Assembly (NCBI GenBank): GCA_003154775.1
Contig: PMES01000126.1
Location: 13,185-64,852, forward strand
Origin: Acidobacteriota bacterium
Lineage (GTDB): Bacteria > Acidobacteriota > Terriglobia > Acidiferrales > UBA7541
Direction of reading: 5' to 3'
Length of the DNA: 51,668 nucleotides
Under the pieces are notes generated by a model. The model was not told where the DNA came from, did not search any database, and saw only the letters and a program-made list of their open reading frames with translations. Positions 2,920 to 30,160 of the stretch are shown here, one piece after another (position 1 is the first letter of the stretch; every line of letters starts with the position of its first letter). The translations under genes and the position numbers were made by a program.

Positions 2920-2963
2920 TCCGGGCTTCCTGATCGCCGATCTCCCTCAGGCATGCCTTTCTC

Positions 2964-2996
2964 TAGCCACTAGTCACTAGCCACTAGCCACTTCCT
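2964..2996. repeat. Heptad array (ACTAGYC type) at the fabI stop
   Basis: ACTAGTC ACTAGCC ACTAGCC ACTTCCT, period 7. The array abuts the fabI stop codon (complement of 2996-2998). Nearly the same array abuts the mutL stop at 3943-3970. Confidence 0.85.
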
Positions 2997-3970: not shown

Positions 3971-5982
3971 CATATCCTATGAAACGCCTTCTCAATCTCC
4001 TTCACCGAATACCGCAGCACCACCGGCCTCCCGTGCGGACAGCTCATCGGGCAATCCGTCTTCGCCAGCGCCGCCAGCAGCCATTCCATCTTCGTCTGGT
4101 CCAGCGGCATGTTCACCTTGATCGCCGCGTGGCACGCCGTGGACGCGGCAATTTTCGCCTGCAGCGTATCGATTGAAATCGCGGCGTTCTCCCGTTCCAG
4201 TCCATCCAGTATCTCCGTCAACAACTGCTCCGCATCGCTCGCCGCAATTCCGCCGGGCACCGCCTGTATGGCCACGCTCTTCGGCCCCATCGGTTCCACT
4301 TCAAATCCGTTCGCCGCCAATTCTTCCCCGATCTTTTCGTAAATCACCAGTTGTCGCGGCGATAGCTCGATCACCATCGGCATCAGCAGCCTCTGCGCTT
4401 CCACTTTCCCCGCCCGCCGCGCTTGCAAATGCTGCTCAAATAAAACGCGCTCATGCGCCACGTGCTGGTCCACGATCCACAATCCCTCGCCATTCACCGC
4501 CACGATGAAGCTGGCGTTCACTTGTCCCAGCGGCTTTAAATCCGCAATCTGCTCGGGACGCGGCAGCGTTGCCGGCGCCTCCGTGCTGCCGCGTGAAAAA
4601 TTCTCCGCCCAATTCGCCGCCGGTGCCGCTGTTCCCATCCCCGCACCAGGGCTGAACGACGCGCCCGGCTCAAACGGAAATCGCTGCGGCACCGGTTGCT
4701 GCGGCGCCGCAGTCAAATCGAATCCCCCGCCCGAGGCGTAGTCCGATCCCACACCGGACCCAACCCCCAATTCCTCCATCGGCGGAATAATCGCGCGCGG
4801 CGCGCCTTCTGCGTCCCGGTCGGGTCTGCGGGACACCCCCGAATTCGCATTCGCCTCGGCGAATCCTCGCGCGAACGAGCCCGGCGGCGCCACGGGATTC
4901 GGCGCCATCGTCGCCGCCGCCGCAAAACTCGCGATCGGCCGCGTGTTCATCAGCGCCTGGCGAATGGCGTCGCGCGTGAAGTCATGCACAAATTGCGACC
5001 TCCGGAAACGCACCTCGATTTTCGCCGGATGCACATTCACGTCCACTTCGTCGTATGGCATCTCCAGAAACAGCAGCGTCGCCGGAAAAACATTCGGCGG
5101 CAATATATTTCGGTAGGCCTCATGAATCGCGTGCAATATCAACCGGTCCCGCACCAGCCGCCGGTTCACAAACACGTAAATCCCATTCCGGTTCAGCCGC
5201 TGGATTTCCGGCCGCGACGTAAACCCCGCCACCGTCAGCGTCGCCGACTCTTCCCCCGCCTCCATTTCCGGCTCCGTGATCGCCGCGCGAAACGCCGCGG
5301 ACACCGGAGCAATTTCCACCAGCTCGTCCAGCGCCTGCTTTCCAAATAACTGGTATACGCGGTCGGCCAGCTTTTCCGCCGGCGCGCAATTCACAATCTC
5401 CTGCGTCGGCGTGGTCAGCGTGAACTGCTTCCCCGGATTCGCCAGCGCGTAGTGTGTCACCAGTGAAGCGATGTGCCCCAGCTCCGTTGTGTCCGACTTC
5501 AGGAATTTCCGCCGCGCCGGCATACAATAAAACAGGTCCGCCACGCTGATCGTCGTTCCCGCAGGCAGCCCCGCGGGCTTCACGTTCACCAGTTTTCCGC
5601 CCGCAAACTCCACCCGCGTGCCCTCGGCTTCATTGGCGTCCCGCGTTTCCAGCAACAACCTCGAAACCGCCGCGATCGATGGCAGCGCCTCCCCGCGAAA
5701 TCCCAGCGTCGCAATCGAGAGCAAATCCTCCGCCGTGCGCAATTTGCTCGTCGCGTGCCGCTCAAACGCCAGCAGCGCATCGTCGTGCGCCATTCCGTGC
5801 CCATCGTCAATCACGCGGATCATCCGCTTCCCGCCCACTTCCGTCTCAATGCGCACGGAATTCGCGCCCGCGTCCAGCGCGTTCTCCAGCAACTCCTTCA
5901 CCACCGAAGCCGGCCTCTCCACCACCTCGCCCGCCGCGATCTTGTTCGCCACCGCCTCCGGCAATATCCGTATCCTGCTCAT
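3970..5982 (-). CDS. mutL: DNA mismatch repair protein MutL
   Basis: 670 aa. The N-terminal GHKL ATPase shows ENALDAGA (motif I), DDGHGM (II) and GFRGEAL (III) in residues ~35-105, followed by the S5-like transducer domain. A Gly/Pro-rich linker spans roughly 340-475. In the C-terminal domain, DQHVAHERVLFE fits the DQHA(x2)E(x4)E endonuclease motif apart from Ala to Val, and CPHGRP near the end is the zinc-site motif. This is therefore probably a nicking MutL of the kind found in species without MutH. The start ATG overlaps the stop of the upstream RAYT frame (ATGA), but that overlap looks accidental because the RAYT tail is repeat DNA. Confidence 0.95.
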   Translation of the reverse strand: MSRIRILPEAVANKIAAGEVVERPASVVKELLENALDAGANSVRIETEVGGKRMIRVIDDGHGMAHDDALLAFERHATSKLRTAEDLLSIATLGFRGEALPSIAAVSRLLLETRDANEAEGTRVEFAGGKLVNVKPAGLPAGTTISVADLFYCMPARRKFLKSDTTELGHIASLVTHYALANPGKQFTLTTPTQEIVNCAPAEKLADRVYQLFGKQALDELVEIAPVSAAFRAAITEPEMEAGEESATLTVAGFTSRPEIQRLNRNGIYVFVNRRLVRDRLILHAIHEAYRNILPPNVFPATLLFLEMPYDEVDVNVHPAKIEVRFRRSQFVHDFTRDAIRQALMNTRPIASFAAAATMAPNPVAPPGSFARGFAEANANSGVSRRPDRDAEGAPRAIIPPMEELGVGSGVGSDYASGGGFDLTAAPQQPVPQRFPFEPGASFSPGAGMGTAAPAANWAENFSRGSTEAPATLPRPEQIADLKPLGQVNASFIVAVNGEGLWIVDQHVAHERVLFEQHLQARRAGKVEAQRLLMPMVIELSPRQLVIYEKIGEELAANGFEVEPMGPKSVAIQAVPGGIAASDAEQLLTEILDGLERENAAISIDTLQAKIAASTACHAAIKVNMPLDQTKMEWLLAALAKTDCPMSCPHGRPVVLRYSVKEIEKAFHRI

Positions 5983-6806
5983 GAATTCCCTTCTTTAGGG
6001 TGTGCCACAGCAGTATCTGGATTCTTAGTTGGGGCACAGGGGGTCGGACCTTCAGGTCCGACATCACCGCCATGGCTGCGAACAGGCTTTAGCCCCTGAG
6101 GAATTGACCCCTCAGTGCAGCCACCGCGGGTCGGAGCTTTAGCTCCGACTTTTGCAGTTTCTTTAGGAGGCAGGGGCTTCAGTTTACCCTGAGCTTCTAA
6201 GGTCTCCTGGGTCGCAGGAGAAGTGTTGGGGGTTGGACCTTTAGGTCCCGCTCCCGCAGTTTCTTTAGGAGGCAGGGGCTTCAGCCCCTGCGCAACAGTG
6301 CCAACAAATTGGGCTTTAGCCCCTGAAGCCAGGTTTCGATATTTCTCCGGCATTCCATCCAAACAAAACTTCTGATTTGCCGATGAATACACCCAATCCT
6401 CAACTCGTTCGCAAAGTCGCGCCTTCACAGGATTCATCTGAATGTACTTCGCCTTTGCCTTCCAATCGTCCAGATCCCTTATCGTCCAATCGTGAAAGCC
6501 CACCTGCCATATCTCCATTTTCCCGCCGCGCTCTTTATGTATCCGATGCGAACTCCGGCCTTTAATCAATTGCATCGCTTTTTCGAGACTCGTTTCGGGT
6601 CCAGGAGTCAGCAGTAGGTGCAAATGGTCCGGCATAATGACAAAGCTATGAAGCAAGTACGCCCCAGAATCCCGGTAATGAAAGAGAGTGTTGAGCATGA
6701 TCTCTGCAACTTCAGTGACCTGGAAGAGGCTGCGCCCCTCCCAGCATTTTGTAGTCACGAAGTAGGAGGCGCCAGGAACTGTTCTATGTCCGGGCGTTGA
6801 CATCAC
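5979..6806 (-). CDS. REP-associated tyrosine transposase (RAYT), repeat-extended
   Basis: 275 aa frame. Residues 1-160 form a Y1_Tnp/RAYT domain. HLHL follows MPD at residues 61-64 (metal-binding His-x-His), and Tyr121 in YIQMNPVKARL is the likely catalytic tyrosine. RAYTs are single-copy HUH nucleases linked to REP palindromes, which they are thought to mobilise. Residues ~161-275 match no domain. They are translated REP palindromes: GAKAQ, AQGLKPLPPKET (twice, the first copy intact) and VGAKAPTRG come from repeats at 6043-6328. The natural stop seems lost, so the frame runs to the mutL ATG. Inverted REP copies lie just upstream at 6814-6877, flanking the gene. Whether the protein is active cannot be judged. 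Confidence 0.85.
   Translation of the reverse strand: MMSTPGHRTVPGASYFVTTKCWEGRSLFQVTEVAEIMLNTLFHYRDSGAYLLHSFVIMPDHLHLLLTPGPETSLEKAMQLIKGRSSHRIHKERGGKMEIWQVGFHDWTIRDLDDWKAKAKYIQMNPVKARLCERVEDWVYSSANQKFCLDGMPEKYRNLASGAKAQFVGTVAQGLKPLPPKETAGAGPKGPTPNTSPATQETLEAQGKLKPLPPKETAKVGAKAPTRGGCTEGSIPQGLKPVRSHGGDVGPEGPTPCAPTKNPDTAVAHPKEGNS
6043..6101. repeat. REP unit in RAYT tail (A' + 18 nt + B)
   Basis: Palindrome gtcggaccttcaggtccgac (6043-6062), 18-base spacer, then the ggctttagcccctgagga half-element (6081-6101). Against the copy at 24-82, stem bases have changed on both sides and still pair. Confidence 0.85.
6130..6293. repeat. REP cluster in RAYT tail
   Basis: Palindrome A (6130-6149), then the spacer ttttgcagtttctttagg and a half palindrome aggcaggggcttcag (ends ~6183) whose second arm is replaced by unrelated sequence. 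A second A-like palindrome follows (6232-6251), with a similar tttctttagg spacer and the full palindrome aggcaggggcttcagcccct (6269-6288). Confidence 0.8.
6306..6328. repeat. REP palindrome B at the end of the RAYT domain
   Basis: aaattgggctttagcccctg plus aag. It marks the junction where the conserved transposase domain ends and the repeat-encoded tail begins. Confidence 0.8.
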
Positions 6807-8949: not shown

Positions 8950-8980
8950 TGTAGCTCAGGCCTTCAGGCCTGAGGTTTTC
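8950..8980. repeat. Dispersed palindrome family D
   Basis: tgtagctcaggccttcaggc continuing into ctgaggttttc, 12 bases upstream of the aspS start codon on the minus strand; near-identical to 1481-1510. Confidence 0.8.
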
Positions 8981-9051
8981 CACAGCGCCATAAAAATCTC
9001 CTCGATAGAGCACGGCCTCACAGCTTGCCGAAAAAATACGCAATTTAGGGG

Positions 9052-9110
9052 GTCGGAGCTTTAGCTCCGACATTAAGTGCCTGGCTCGCATTGGGCTTTA
9101 GCCCCTGAGG
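9052..9110. repeat. Bipartite REP-like unit (A + 18 nt + B)
   Basis: Same layout as 24-82: A at 9052-9071, an 18-base spacer, then attgggctttagcccctgag (9090-9109). It lies just 3' of hisS. Confidence 0.85.
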
Positions 9111-9140
9111 ATTTCTCTCCCTCGCCGTTCCGTCCTCGAA

Positions 9141-10838
9141 TCAATTCCGCCCCTTCCGCAAAAATTCCAGCAACCCCTCTTCGCTGTACTTCCCCTGCGT
9201 CCCATCCGCCAGCGTCTTCAGTGTCCACTGCCCGCTCGCCACTTCATCCTCGCCCAAAATCAGCGCGTACCGCGCGCCCAGCTTATCCGCCTGCCCCAGC
9301 GCTTTGCCAAACTTTTGCTCCACCGGCGGCAGCTCCACGCGAAATCCCGCTTGCCGCAAATCCCGCGCCGCGCGAATCGCCGTCGCCTCAGCGGTTTTCC
9401 CCATCCAAGCGACATAAACATCGCATCCGCTCTTCCCGCTAGCCACTCGCTGCCCCGCCCCGACCCGGTCGGGGTCGCCACTAGCCACTTCTTTTCTCGC
9501 TTCCTGCAGCGAAAGGATCACGCGGTCCTCGCCAATCGCAAATCCGATGCCCTTCGTCGGCGGCCCGCCCAGCAATTCCACCAGCCCATCATAGCGCCCG
9601 CCACCGCACACGGCATTCTGCGAACCCAAGCCCCGCGCGGTAATCTCAAACGTCGTCCGCATGTAGTAGTCCAACCCGCGCACCAGCCGCCAATTCTCCC
9701 GGTACGCCACGCCGCGCATTTCCAGTTGCCTTTTCACTTCCGCGTAGTGCTTCGCGCAATCCGCGCACAGGTGATCCCCAATCCGCGGCAGCTTCTCGAT
9801 AATCCCTTGCTCGCTTTCCAGCTTCGAATCCAGCACCCGCAACGGGTTGGTCTCAATCCGTCTCTTGCTGTCCTCGCCCAACTGGCCTTTCACAGTTTCT
9901 AGCGCGGCTTTTAGCTTTTCGACGTATGCGCGTCTGCAAACATTCTTGCTATCAACGGGAGGCTCACTGTGGCCAATCGAATTAATGTCCAGTTGCACGC
10001 CTTCCAATCCCAGCCGCGCGAAAAACGCCATCACCATCTCAATCACTTCCGCGTCGGTTGCTGCATCCTTCTTACCAGCCACTAGCCGCTCCGCCCCGAC
10101 CCGGTCGGGGTCGCCACTAGCCACTTCTTTCCTGACCGCCTCCAGCACCTCCGCCCCAATCTGATAAAACTGCCGGTATCTCCCCTTCTGCGGCCGCTCC
10201 CGCCGGAACATCGGCCCCATGTAGTACAACTTCACCGGCTGCGCCAAAGCATGCATCCCGTGCTCAATGTACGCCCGGCAAACGCTCGCCGTCGCCTCCG
10301 GCCGCAACGAGACTGAGACATTCCCGAGCCTTATCAGGCTGGCCATAGTCCGGCACTTATCAACAAGCGTTCTGTATTCAGTGAAGATCTCGGCGGAGCC
10401 CTGCTGGGATTCTTGAGGCAAGCTCTGAGTGACTTTCCTAAGCTCGTCAAATATAAACAAAAGGTTGGCTACTTTCTGCTGATTCTCTTCCGTCCGCGGA
10501 ATATCACCCTTGTCAAACGCATCCTTGATTCTGTAGACAGACTCGCCGACGTTCTCTGTCAGTTCAGGGGATGGATGTGCGTCTAATGAAGCATCAACGG
10601 CAAAAAATTCTTTGGCGGGATCGAACGAGTACATCTCCTTGCCCACTACTTCAGTTCGAGACCCCACCGCCCTTGCAAACAACTCCGTCGGCTCAAAAAT
10701 CGGCAGCCGTATCTCCCCAAATCCAAACGACCCAAACACCTCGCGCGCCGTCTGCTCCACCCGGTTCCACAACTCCGTCTCCGGCGGCAGCAAATCCCGC
10801 GTCCCCTTAATCGCCTGAAATTTTCGTTTTTCCGCCAT
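9141..10838 (-). CDS. hisS: Histidyl-tRNA synthetase with in-frame repeat insertions
   Basis: 565 aa; bacterial HisRS is usually ~420-430. Class II signatures are intact: KGTRDLLPPE (N-terminus), RPEATA, FRRERPQKGRYRQFYQIG (motif 2), GLDYYMRTTFE and CGGGRYDGL. The extra length is in three places. About 100 residues (~75-174) separate KEMYSFDP from VSLRPEATA. Two copies of the peptide RKEVASGDPDRVGA, starting at residue 236 and again near 447, are encoded by palindromic repeats. No frame is broken and the catalytic blocks are untouched, so the protein is probably functional. The start is the ATG at 10838, next to a heptad-like array. Confidence 0.93.
   Translation of the reverse strand: MAEKRKFQAIKGTRDLLPPETELWNRVEQTAREVFGSFGFGEIRLPIFEPTELFARAVGSRTEVVGKEMYSFDPAKEFFAVDASLDAHPSPELTENVGESVYRIKDAFDKGDIPRTEENQQKVANLLFIFDELRKVTQSLPQESQQGSAEIFTEYRTLVDKCRTMASLIRLGNVSVSLRPEATASVCRAYIEHGMHALAQPVKLYYMGPMFRRERPQKGRYRQFYQIGAEVLEAVRKEVASGDPDRVGAERLVAGKKDAATDAEVIEMVMAFFARLGLEGVQLDINSIGHSEPPVDSKNVCRRAYVEKLKAALETVKGQLGEDSKRRIETNPLRVLDSKLESEQGIIEKLPRIGDHLCADCAKHYAEVKRQLEMRGVAYRENWRLVRGLDYYMRTTFEITARGLGSQNAVCGGGRYDGLVELLGGPPTKGIGFAIGEDRVILSLQEARKEVASGDPDRVGAGQRVASGKSGCDVYVAWMGKTAEATAIRAARDLRQAGFRVELPPVEQKFGKALGQADKLGARYALILGEDEVASGQWTLKTLADGTQGKYSEEGLLEFLRKGRN
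9433..9495. repeat. In-frame palindromic element inside hisS (copy 2)
   Basis: The palindrome ccccgacccggtcgggg (9458-9474) is flanked by ctagccact-type heptads (tcgccactagccacttcttt, 9475-9494). Read on the minus strand it encodes KEVASGDPDRVGA between the catalytic and anticodon-binding parts of HisRS. Confidence 0.9.
10073..10130. repeat. In-frame palindromic element inside hisS (copy 1)
   Basis: The same palindrome (10094-10110) with the same right flank, tcgccactagccacttcttt (10111-10130), and a left flank containing ccactagcc. Read in the same frame as the other copy, giving KEVASGDPDRVGA just after motif 2. Confidence 0.9.
10317..10616 (-). other. ~100-codon extra segment within hisS
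   Basis: Codons ~75-174 of hisS have no counterpart in the standard HisRS layout, where KEMYTF is followed within a few residues by the LRPEGTA block. The segment looks poorer in GC than its surroundings and encodes a polar, helix-prone stretch. I do not recognise a domain in it. Confidence 0.6.
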
Positions 10839-12290: not shown

Positions 12291-15272
<2,982 letters not shown>

Positions 15273-26825: not shown

Positions 26826-26886
26826 CCCCAACCCGGTCGGGGTGTTCGTCCCTCTGTGACCGGCGCCTGCCCCGACCCGGTCGGGG
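26826..26886. repeat. Two copies of the ccccgacccggtcgggg palindrome
   Basis: ccccaacccggtcgggg (26826-26842) and ccccgacccggtcgggg (26870-26886). The second lies 3 bases beyond the stop of the hydrolase gene. This is the same 17-base palindrome found in frame inside hisS; a variant is at 29878-29894. Confidence 0.85.
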
Positions 26887-29581: not shown

Positions 29582-30160
29582 GTTCCCAATAGCGCAGGGC
29601 GATTCTGAGAGCTCTACGGCTTTTCTCTTGGGTTTGCATTTGTACTGGCCGACCCCGCGCCCCGCGGGGTCGCTTCTTGGGTTCGCCCTTGTAGGGGCGC
29701 AGCATCGCTGCGCCCCTTCTCGGCAAGATCGCCACTTTGTCCGGCCTTTCCCTCGGGTTTCCCTCTGTAGCTCAGGCCTTCAAGCCTGCCGCTTTTTCCT
29801 GGGTTCGCCATTGTAGTGGCCGACCTTCAGGTCGGTTCTTGGGTTTCTCTTGCTCGTGTAGGGGCCGCCTGGCGTTTACCCCGACCTGGTCGGGGACGCG
29901 GCCCGCTCTTGGGTCGCGTTTCTTGGAGTGCGGCGGCTTGCCGCCGCCTTTCCGCCCGCGCCCATTCTCCAACCTGTCATCCTGAGGCCCCCGCCTTCCG
30001 GGGCCGAAGGACCTCAGCTTCAAATGTATCCGCGATCCGTCTTCTCTCTTCGCTTTTCGCTTTTCGCTCTTCGCTCTTCGTCCTTCGCTTCCCCTTCACA
30101 CCCAAACTGCAATCCCTCCCCGCTTCGTTTACAATTAAATTGGAACTGATTTCCTAACGA
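29582..30160. repeat. Repeat-filled spacer between guaB and the VanZ-like gene
   Basis: At least six elements in 580 bases: gaccccgcgccccgcggggtc (29644-29664); aggggcgcagcatcgctgcg cccct (29694-29718); family D (29766-29795); E (29811-29850); a variant ccccgacctggtcgggg (29878-29894); F (29932-29951); H (29974-30021). A (TTCGnnn)6 heptad array follows at 30049-30090. No gene. Confidence 0.75.
30049..30090. repeat. Heptad array (TTCGnnn)6
   Basis: TTCGCTT TTCGCTT TTCGCTC TTCGCTC TTCGTCC TTCGCTT, six perfect-phase heptads, again four fixed plus three variable bases. One direction only. Confidence 0.85.

Follow-up and report, generated by a model that had tools for sequence, protein, structure and literature searches.

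Introduction

How new peptide segments enter old proteins is an open question, for which the palindromic inserts of Rickettsia are the standard case. RPE-1 of Rickettsia has a length of roughly 100–150 bp. For cyanobacteria, Elhai is said to have described in 2008 small dispersed repeats of 21–27 nt which are structured, often embedded in tandem heptamers and subject to nested insertions. Coding palindromic repeats are cited for Rickettsia, Wolbachia and Methanocaldococcus jannaschii, and in the excerpted text of the same source the RPE and the Wolbachia palindromes are dispersed, lie in frame in housekeeping genes and fall into non-structured protein segments (PMC2996958). REPs have been found inside ORFs of several species, among them those of tRNA synthetases and DnaE2 and genes with two inserts (PMC3733652, section 15), and some of them occupy roughly corresponding positions in a pair of species, as in recB of two xanthomonads (PMC3733652). 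The heptameric repeats of Xanthomonas and Nostoc form dispersed 7-bp tandem arrays, mostly intergenic with a minority in genes (PMC4692102). From the ORF REPs with their tRNA synthetases and double inserts, and from the coding palindromes of Rickettsia and Wolbachia, it follows that the kind of insert described below is already known.

Here we describe an uncultured soil lineage in which loops of histidyl-tRNA synthetase (HisRS), PrmC, LeuRS and a second DnaE contain repeat-derived segments with hairpins nested in heptads, one linker having been hit independently in several species. As in Rickettsia and Wolbachia, the repeats are dispersed and lie in frame within housekeeping genes and non-structured segments, but the core in hisS has only 17 bp and is nested in heptads, the phylum is a different one and the same linker is hit elsewhere by heptads alone. 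The unit of 17–25 bp is also much shorter than RPE-1, RPE being compared by description only. With the GTAG/CGTC REPs it shares the form of short hairpins in ORFs, and one host form of the palindrome comes with GTAG; however, the hisS copies have no GTAG beside the hairpin, none of the transposase genes scanned in this genome is flanked by the palindrome, and the word ‘heptamer’ is absent from the main text of PMC3733652. The cyanobacterial repeats are similar as short structured repeats in tandem heptamers (in hisS twice, with other elements at rsmH and prmC), but the phylum differs and the inserts here lie in coding frames of conserved genes, the likeness being one of description. The units of Xanthomonas and Nostoc differ in being G-rich (GGGAATC, GGGGA(C/T)T) and were studied as G-quadruplexes, nested hairpins being unmentioned in the excerpted text of PMC4692102. 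The initial annotation of the locus had likened the hisS inserts to the in-frame palindromes of Rickettsia; the kind indeed matches, but its known occurrence extends far outside Rickettsia and covers tRNA synthetases as well as genes hit twice (PMC3733652). Neither a heptad composite in genes of this phylum nor a linker that several species have used independently was found in the open-licence literature searched.

Results and Discussion

The stretch of DNA analysed (51,668 nucleotides, hereafter the window) corresponds to positions 13185–64852 of contig C147 in the draft genome of a soil Acidobacterium (4.63 Mb, 150 contigs). Its hisS gene (Table 1) encodes the only HisRS match in the genome and was identified with the TIGR00442 profile (418 bits, cut-off 287). 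RRERPQKGR, LVRGLDYY and GFAIGEDR, which we take to be the class II motifs, are all present, and the nearest named relatives are Candidatus Acidiferrum typicum and other Acidobacteria, mostly gp2 or Acidiferrales assemblies.

Table 1: Features of the window discussed in the text (positions count from the first nucleotide of the window).
Feature	Position	Strand	Remarks
Heptad array CTAGCCACTAGTCACTAGCCACTAGCCACT	2963..2992		adjoins stop codon of enoyl-ACP reductase gene; no palindrome
hisS, histidyl-tRNA synthetase	9141..10838	minus	565 aa, single open frame
Other flank of site III palindrome	9437..9457		heptads CGCTAGCCACTCGC and TGCCCCG
Codons for KEVASGDPDRVGA, site III	9456..9494	minus	residues 449-461
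Palindrome CCCCGACCCGGTCGGGG, site III	9458..9474		exact; linker from catalytic to anticodon-binding domain
Heptad flank TCGCCACTAGCCACTTCTTT, site III	9475..9494		
Other flank of site II palindrome	10077..10093		degenerate heptad stretch AGCCACTAGCCGCTCCG
Codons for KEVASGDPDRVGA, site II	10092..10130	minus	residues 237-249
Palindrome CCCCGACCCGGTCGGGG, site II	10094..10110		exact; loop after QIGAEVL
Heptad flank TCGCCACTAGCCACTTCTTT, site II	10111..10130		identical to that of site III
Dispersed palindrome	26826..26842		intergenic, one mismatch
Dispersed palindrome	26870..26886		intergenic, exact, GGCGCCTG before it
Dispersed palindrome	29879..29895		centre T, behind GTAGGGGCCGCCTGGCGTTTA

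Within hisS, an essential gene, the 17-bp palindrome CCCCGACCNGGTCGGGG occurs twice, and as the initial annotation had noticed, both copies including their flank (9458–9494 and 10094–10130) are exact and identical in strand and frame. Sites II and III thereby have 37 identical bases in common (palindrome and TCGCCACTAGCCACTTCTTT) at a spacing of 636 bp. The palindrome had also been regarded as the inserted unit, which is incomplete: what has been inserted into hisS is a composite, in which the palindrome is nested inside a heptanucleotide array (CGCCACT/TAGCCAC), and relatives are found which have the heptads alone. On the minus strand the heptads of hisS translate as ..VASG... An array of CGCCACT units is open in all six frames, as is the 17-mer itself, and an array of TAGCCAC has stops in all six.

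To place the inserts we compared HisRS with its relatives, the common form of which has a GGSDAP-type site II together with a site III of about 11 residues. The peptide KEVASGDPDRVGA is absent from all 29 aligned relatives (57 other genomes had a HisRS match) and also from all 45 HisRS loci aligned from 80 fetched ones, a set that overlaps the 29. The inserts in hisS are therefore derived, as had been proposed. Against the closest relative (77–79% identical), HisRS of the source genome is longer by 10 aa at site II and by 16 aa at site III; the site II loop of this relative in turn exceeds the common short form by 11 aa. Since this loop is already longer in near relatives, only part of the site II segment is repeat-derived, and as the relatives are at least 20% diverged, the exact borders of the inserts and any target duplications are only suggestive.

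At site III, exact heptad arrays without the palindrome are present in four of the 29 relatives and in both orientations, giving the peptide SPLATRHSP in L034 and L038 and VASGEWR in L018 and L040; L018 carries further heptads in its site II loop, and L034 has some at site I. In a phylogeny of the HisRS core from which the loops were left out, the five carriers at site III (including the source genome) require five changes, all five of them forced by well-supported branches, although such counts do not separate gain from loss. L043, the sister of L040, was considered as a further carrier and rejected, as it shows a trace (GVASEDPR) with no exact heptad unit in its DNA at site III; counting it would give six carriers and five changes, four of them forced. 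VASG alone is not diagnostic, because a native EVASG(Q/E)W segment exists in the anticodon-binding domain of HisRS. Comparable peptides of repeat origin at this position in some related species suggest that housekeeping proteins are extended by dispersed repeats time and again.

We therefore consider it probable that composite repeat DNA, a heptad array with a nested 17-bp palindrome, has extended HisRS in frame at two of its loops, and that the resulting peptides are tolerated rather than selected. The likely order is that heptad arrays were first seeded into loops in which additional residues do no harm, that one of these arrays was then entered by the palindrome, and that the composite was finally copied to the other array of hisS by recombination or gene conversion. 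We infer this order, as well as the copying, the neutrality of the peptides and the mobility of the palindrome. That orientation and frame are common to both sites and their flank is unique among all copies of the palindrome in the genome favours copying over two separate events, this shared context being the whole of the argument for copying within hisS.

The palindrome belongs to a larger family. Allowing three mismatches or fewer, we found ten strand-matches in the window, representing five sites, while 100 shuffles of the window gave 0.47 matches on average and four at most, none reaching ten. Among the additional intergenic copies of the initial annotation, those in the region 26826–26886 exist (one with a mismatch, one exact) and the one given at 29878–29894 had to be moved by one position to 29879–29895. 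When the centre base is left free, the whole genome contains 94 sites (57 with a C/G centre and 37 with A/T), compared to none for the reversed pattern as control, so the element is dispersed, as had been stated. Of 37 genomes from the same family 27 contain it, and of 24 more distant ones none does. Nearly everywhere it is nested in another repeat, as 89 of the 94 palindromes are flanked on one side by the host-repeat sequences GGCGTTTA or GGCGCCTG (two mismatches at most). These hosts are arrays of the CTCTGTG type (42), a GTAG-type hairpin (26) and a TCCTGAGG..CGAAGGAT hairpin (21), a cruder rule applied to the same 89 giving 46, 23 and 20. The five without such a flank comprise the two hisS copies, two apparently truncated ones and one interrupted by a gap in the assembly. 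Lacking the GGCGTTTA-type flank, the hisS copies thus differ from a simple duplicate of the intergenic element. GCCACT within 25 bases after the palindrome on either strand is seen among the 94 only for the two hisS copies, and a search of 61 genomes for this pattern returned four places, the two in hisS and two in G005, the matched letters of which are not heptad arrays. That a GGCGTTTA flank would interrupt the hisS frame was considered and rejected, as the frame in use would stay open.

A stop-free frame of at least 200 codons runs over 42 of the 94 palindromes, and at least three of the 94 are in frame in conserved genes, three having been recognised among the 14 longest frames inspected. 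The third of these copies lies in the second dnaE, where the GTAG-type flank is kept. The family is hence found both between genes and in frame within genes, as is the case for RPE. For hairpins in general, 16 stretches of 20 kb together with the window contained 222 perfect ones (stem of at least 7, loop of 0–7) and three block shuffles 208, 181 and 172, which is no strong excess.

Could the palindrome alone be the mobile element, an analogue of RPE or REP moved by a transposase, which jumped into hisS twice with the heptads being incidental? Its 94 dispersed copies, compared to 1 to 19 in the other 26 carriers and no more than 19 in any of the 60 other genomes, would fit, as would its nesting in several host repeats, the GTAG found within 26 bases of 23 of the 89 flanked copies as in GTAG REPs, and the in-frame copy with a GTAG-type flank in the second dnaE. 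The genome also has ten matches to Y1 transposases, one of which is the gene of a REP-associated tyrosine transposase at a distance of 2.3 kb from hisS (window 5979–6806, minus strand, between mutL and aspS; NF047646, 125 bits, cut-off 80). However, when all ten matches were scanned (one with an internal stop, one at a contig end, the stretch being shorter where a contig ends), no Y1 transposase (RAYT) gene was flanked by the palindrome and the 17-mer was near only one of them, 1.0 and 1.8 kb away, leaving mobilisation of the 17-mer by a RAYT unsupported. As the hisS copies moreover have no flank of the kind seen on 89 of the 94, and heptads alone are found at site III in four relatives, we regard two jumps of the palindrome by itself as unlikely.

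With respect to the protein, site II maps between chain positions 133 and 138 of E. coli HisRS (1kmm_A) and site III near positions 321–329, which is the link to the anticodon-binding domain. Both sites had been expected in exposed loops between conserved blocks. The structure model (mean pLDDT 76.5) predicts coil at both; residues 247–249 and 454–469 have a pLDDT below 50, though low pLDDT is no proof of exposure. A third insertion of about 100 aa (window 10320–10616, residues 75–173) lies between EMYSF and SLRPEAT; it consists mostly of confidently predicted helices, is very variable in length among relatives and absent in some, and in L034 it has a heptad peptide at its end.

Both composites fold well as RNA, one with −27.9 kcal/mol (z −1.9, 8 of 200 shuffles equally good) and the other with −30.5 kcal/mol (z −3.0, none of 200), as one would like to see if the hairpins had been retained for an action on the hisS mRNA or its translation such as pausing, stability or regulation. 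But the palindrome itself accounts for the fold and all 29 aligned relatives do without the composites, which makes such a role very unlikely. We give still less credence to a misjoining of repeat copies into hisS during assembly, even if a draft in 150 contigs and identical 37-bp stretches 636 bp apart invite the thought, because the frame is open through both copies, their flanks are unique hisS sequence and heptad inserts occur in the same linker of four other assemblies. Least credible are ancient native loops resembling the repeat by chance: the longer site II loop of the nearest relatives makes this partly valid for site II, but it is contradicted for site III, and 37 identical bases at both sites, a peptide found in none of 29 relatives and 94 copies in the genome speak against it.

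Composite lengthening of loops, our preferred reading, also fits into a wider picture, as short in-frame repeat inserts are not an oddity of hisS alone: leuS, prmC and the second dnaE have comparable ones. The heptad pattern GCCACTHGCCACT gave 20 matches in 13 clusters in the source genome (control: 2), and upon inspection of the two longest frames of each cluster at least five of the 13 proved to be in frame within conserved genes, namely hisS (two), leuS, prmC and the second dnaE. A sixth at the 5′ end of rsmH, which may precede the start codon, has another hairpin nested in its heptads. In prmC (L224:3800-3915) a 116-bp element with inverted ends (TTCATCAATG here, TCTCATAAAT(G/A) in a copy from G005) is located between heptads and in frame just before FDLIVCNPPYVG, and similar copies exist elsewhere in the source genome, in G005 and in G035. 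The PrmC loop before NPPY has 80 residues between the anchors compared to 30 in the closest relative, and other relatives show different repeat-like peptides in this loop (VGAQHAAPLQ, PLATRHSPL, SGEWRVASGERK). In leuS (L222:1919-3451) the in-frame insert consists of heptads and, after them, the further palindromes CCCACCCTTAGATACCAAGGGTGGG and GCACAGTCAAGAGTGACTGTGC, and the second dnaE (L223:721-4341) has heptads and CGAAACTCGAAAGG-type repeats in one loop and the 94-copy palindrome in another, different repeat-like peptides standing at both of these loops in relatives. Relatives either lack the segments of leuS, prmC and the second dnaE or have other repeat-like peptides there, a repeat origin of these being judged by look except for the heptad peptides and the prmC element.

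A 5-mer of an array peptide was found in 20 of 188 loop sequences from four proteins (four of the 20 from the source genome), compared to a mean of 0.29 and a maximum of five in 200 sets of shuffled peptides, the motifs and loops having been picked after inspection. Outside the loops such 5-mers were present in nine proteins: six LeuRS have SPLAT at nearly one position, which is probably native (one of them also has SRVTS), two PrmC have ATRHS, and HisRS of L043 has the native VASGEW in its anticodon-binding domain.

It is also conceivable, although we are inclined to doubt it, that heptanucleotide arrays are a genus-wide vehicle by which the loops of housekeeping enzymes grow and at the same time a frame-safe landing pad for mobile hairpins. 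Because a CGCCACT array has no stop in any of its six frames, it may enter genes in either orientation and then receive hairpins. If true, this would explain the varied elements nested within the heptads of hisS, prmC and at rsmH as well as the repeat strikes on the same loops across species. With dozens of genomes of one genus, it should be possible to count and date such insertion events and to ask whether heptads are needed for entry.

Several repeat families are present in the window. Several TTYA-loop palindromes lie in the DNA for the C-terminal part of the REP-associated transposase, beyond the matched residues 7–141, and Y1-transposase matches 2–2.5 kb from hisS also occur in G004, G005, G008, G020 and G039. 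More small intergenic palindromes, for example CTCAGGCCTTCAGGCCTGAG, GTCGGAGCTTTAGCTCCGAC and CATCCTGAGG..CGAAGGACCTCAG, are found at window positions 8950–9120 and 29760–30010.
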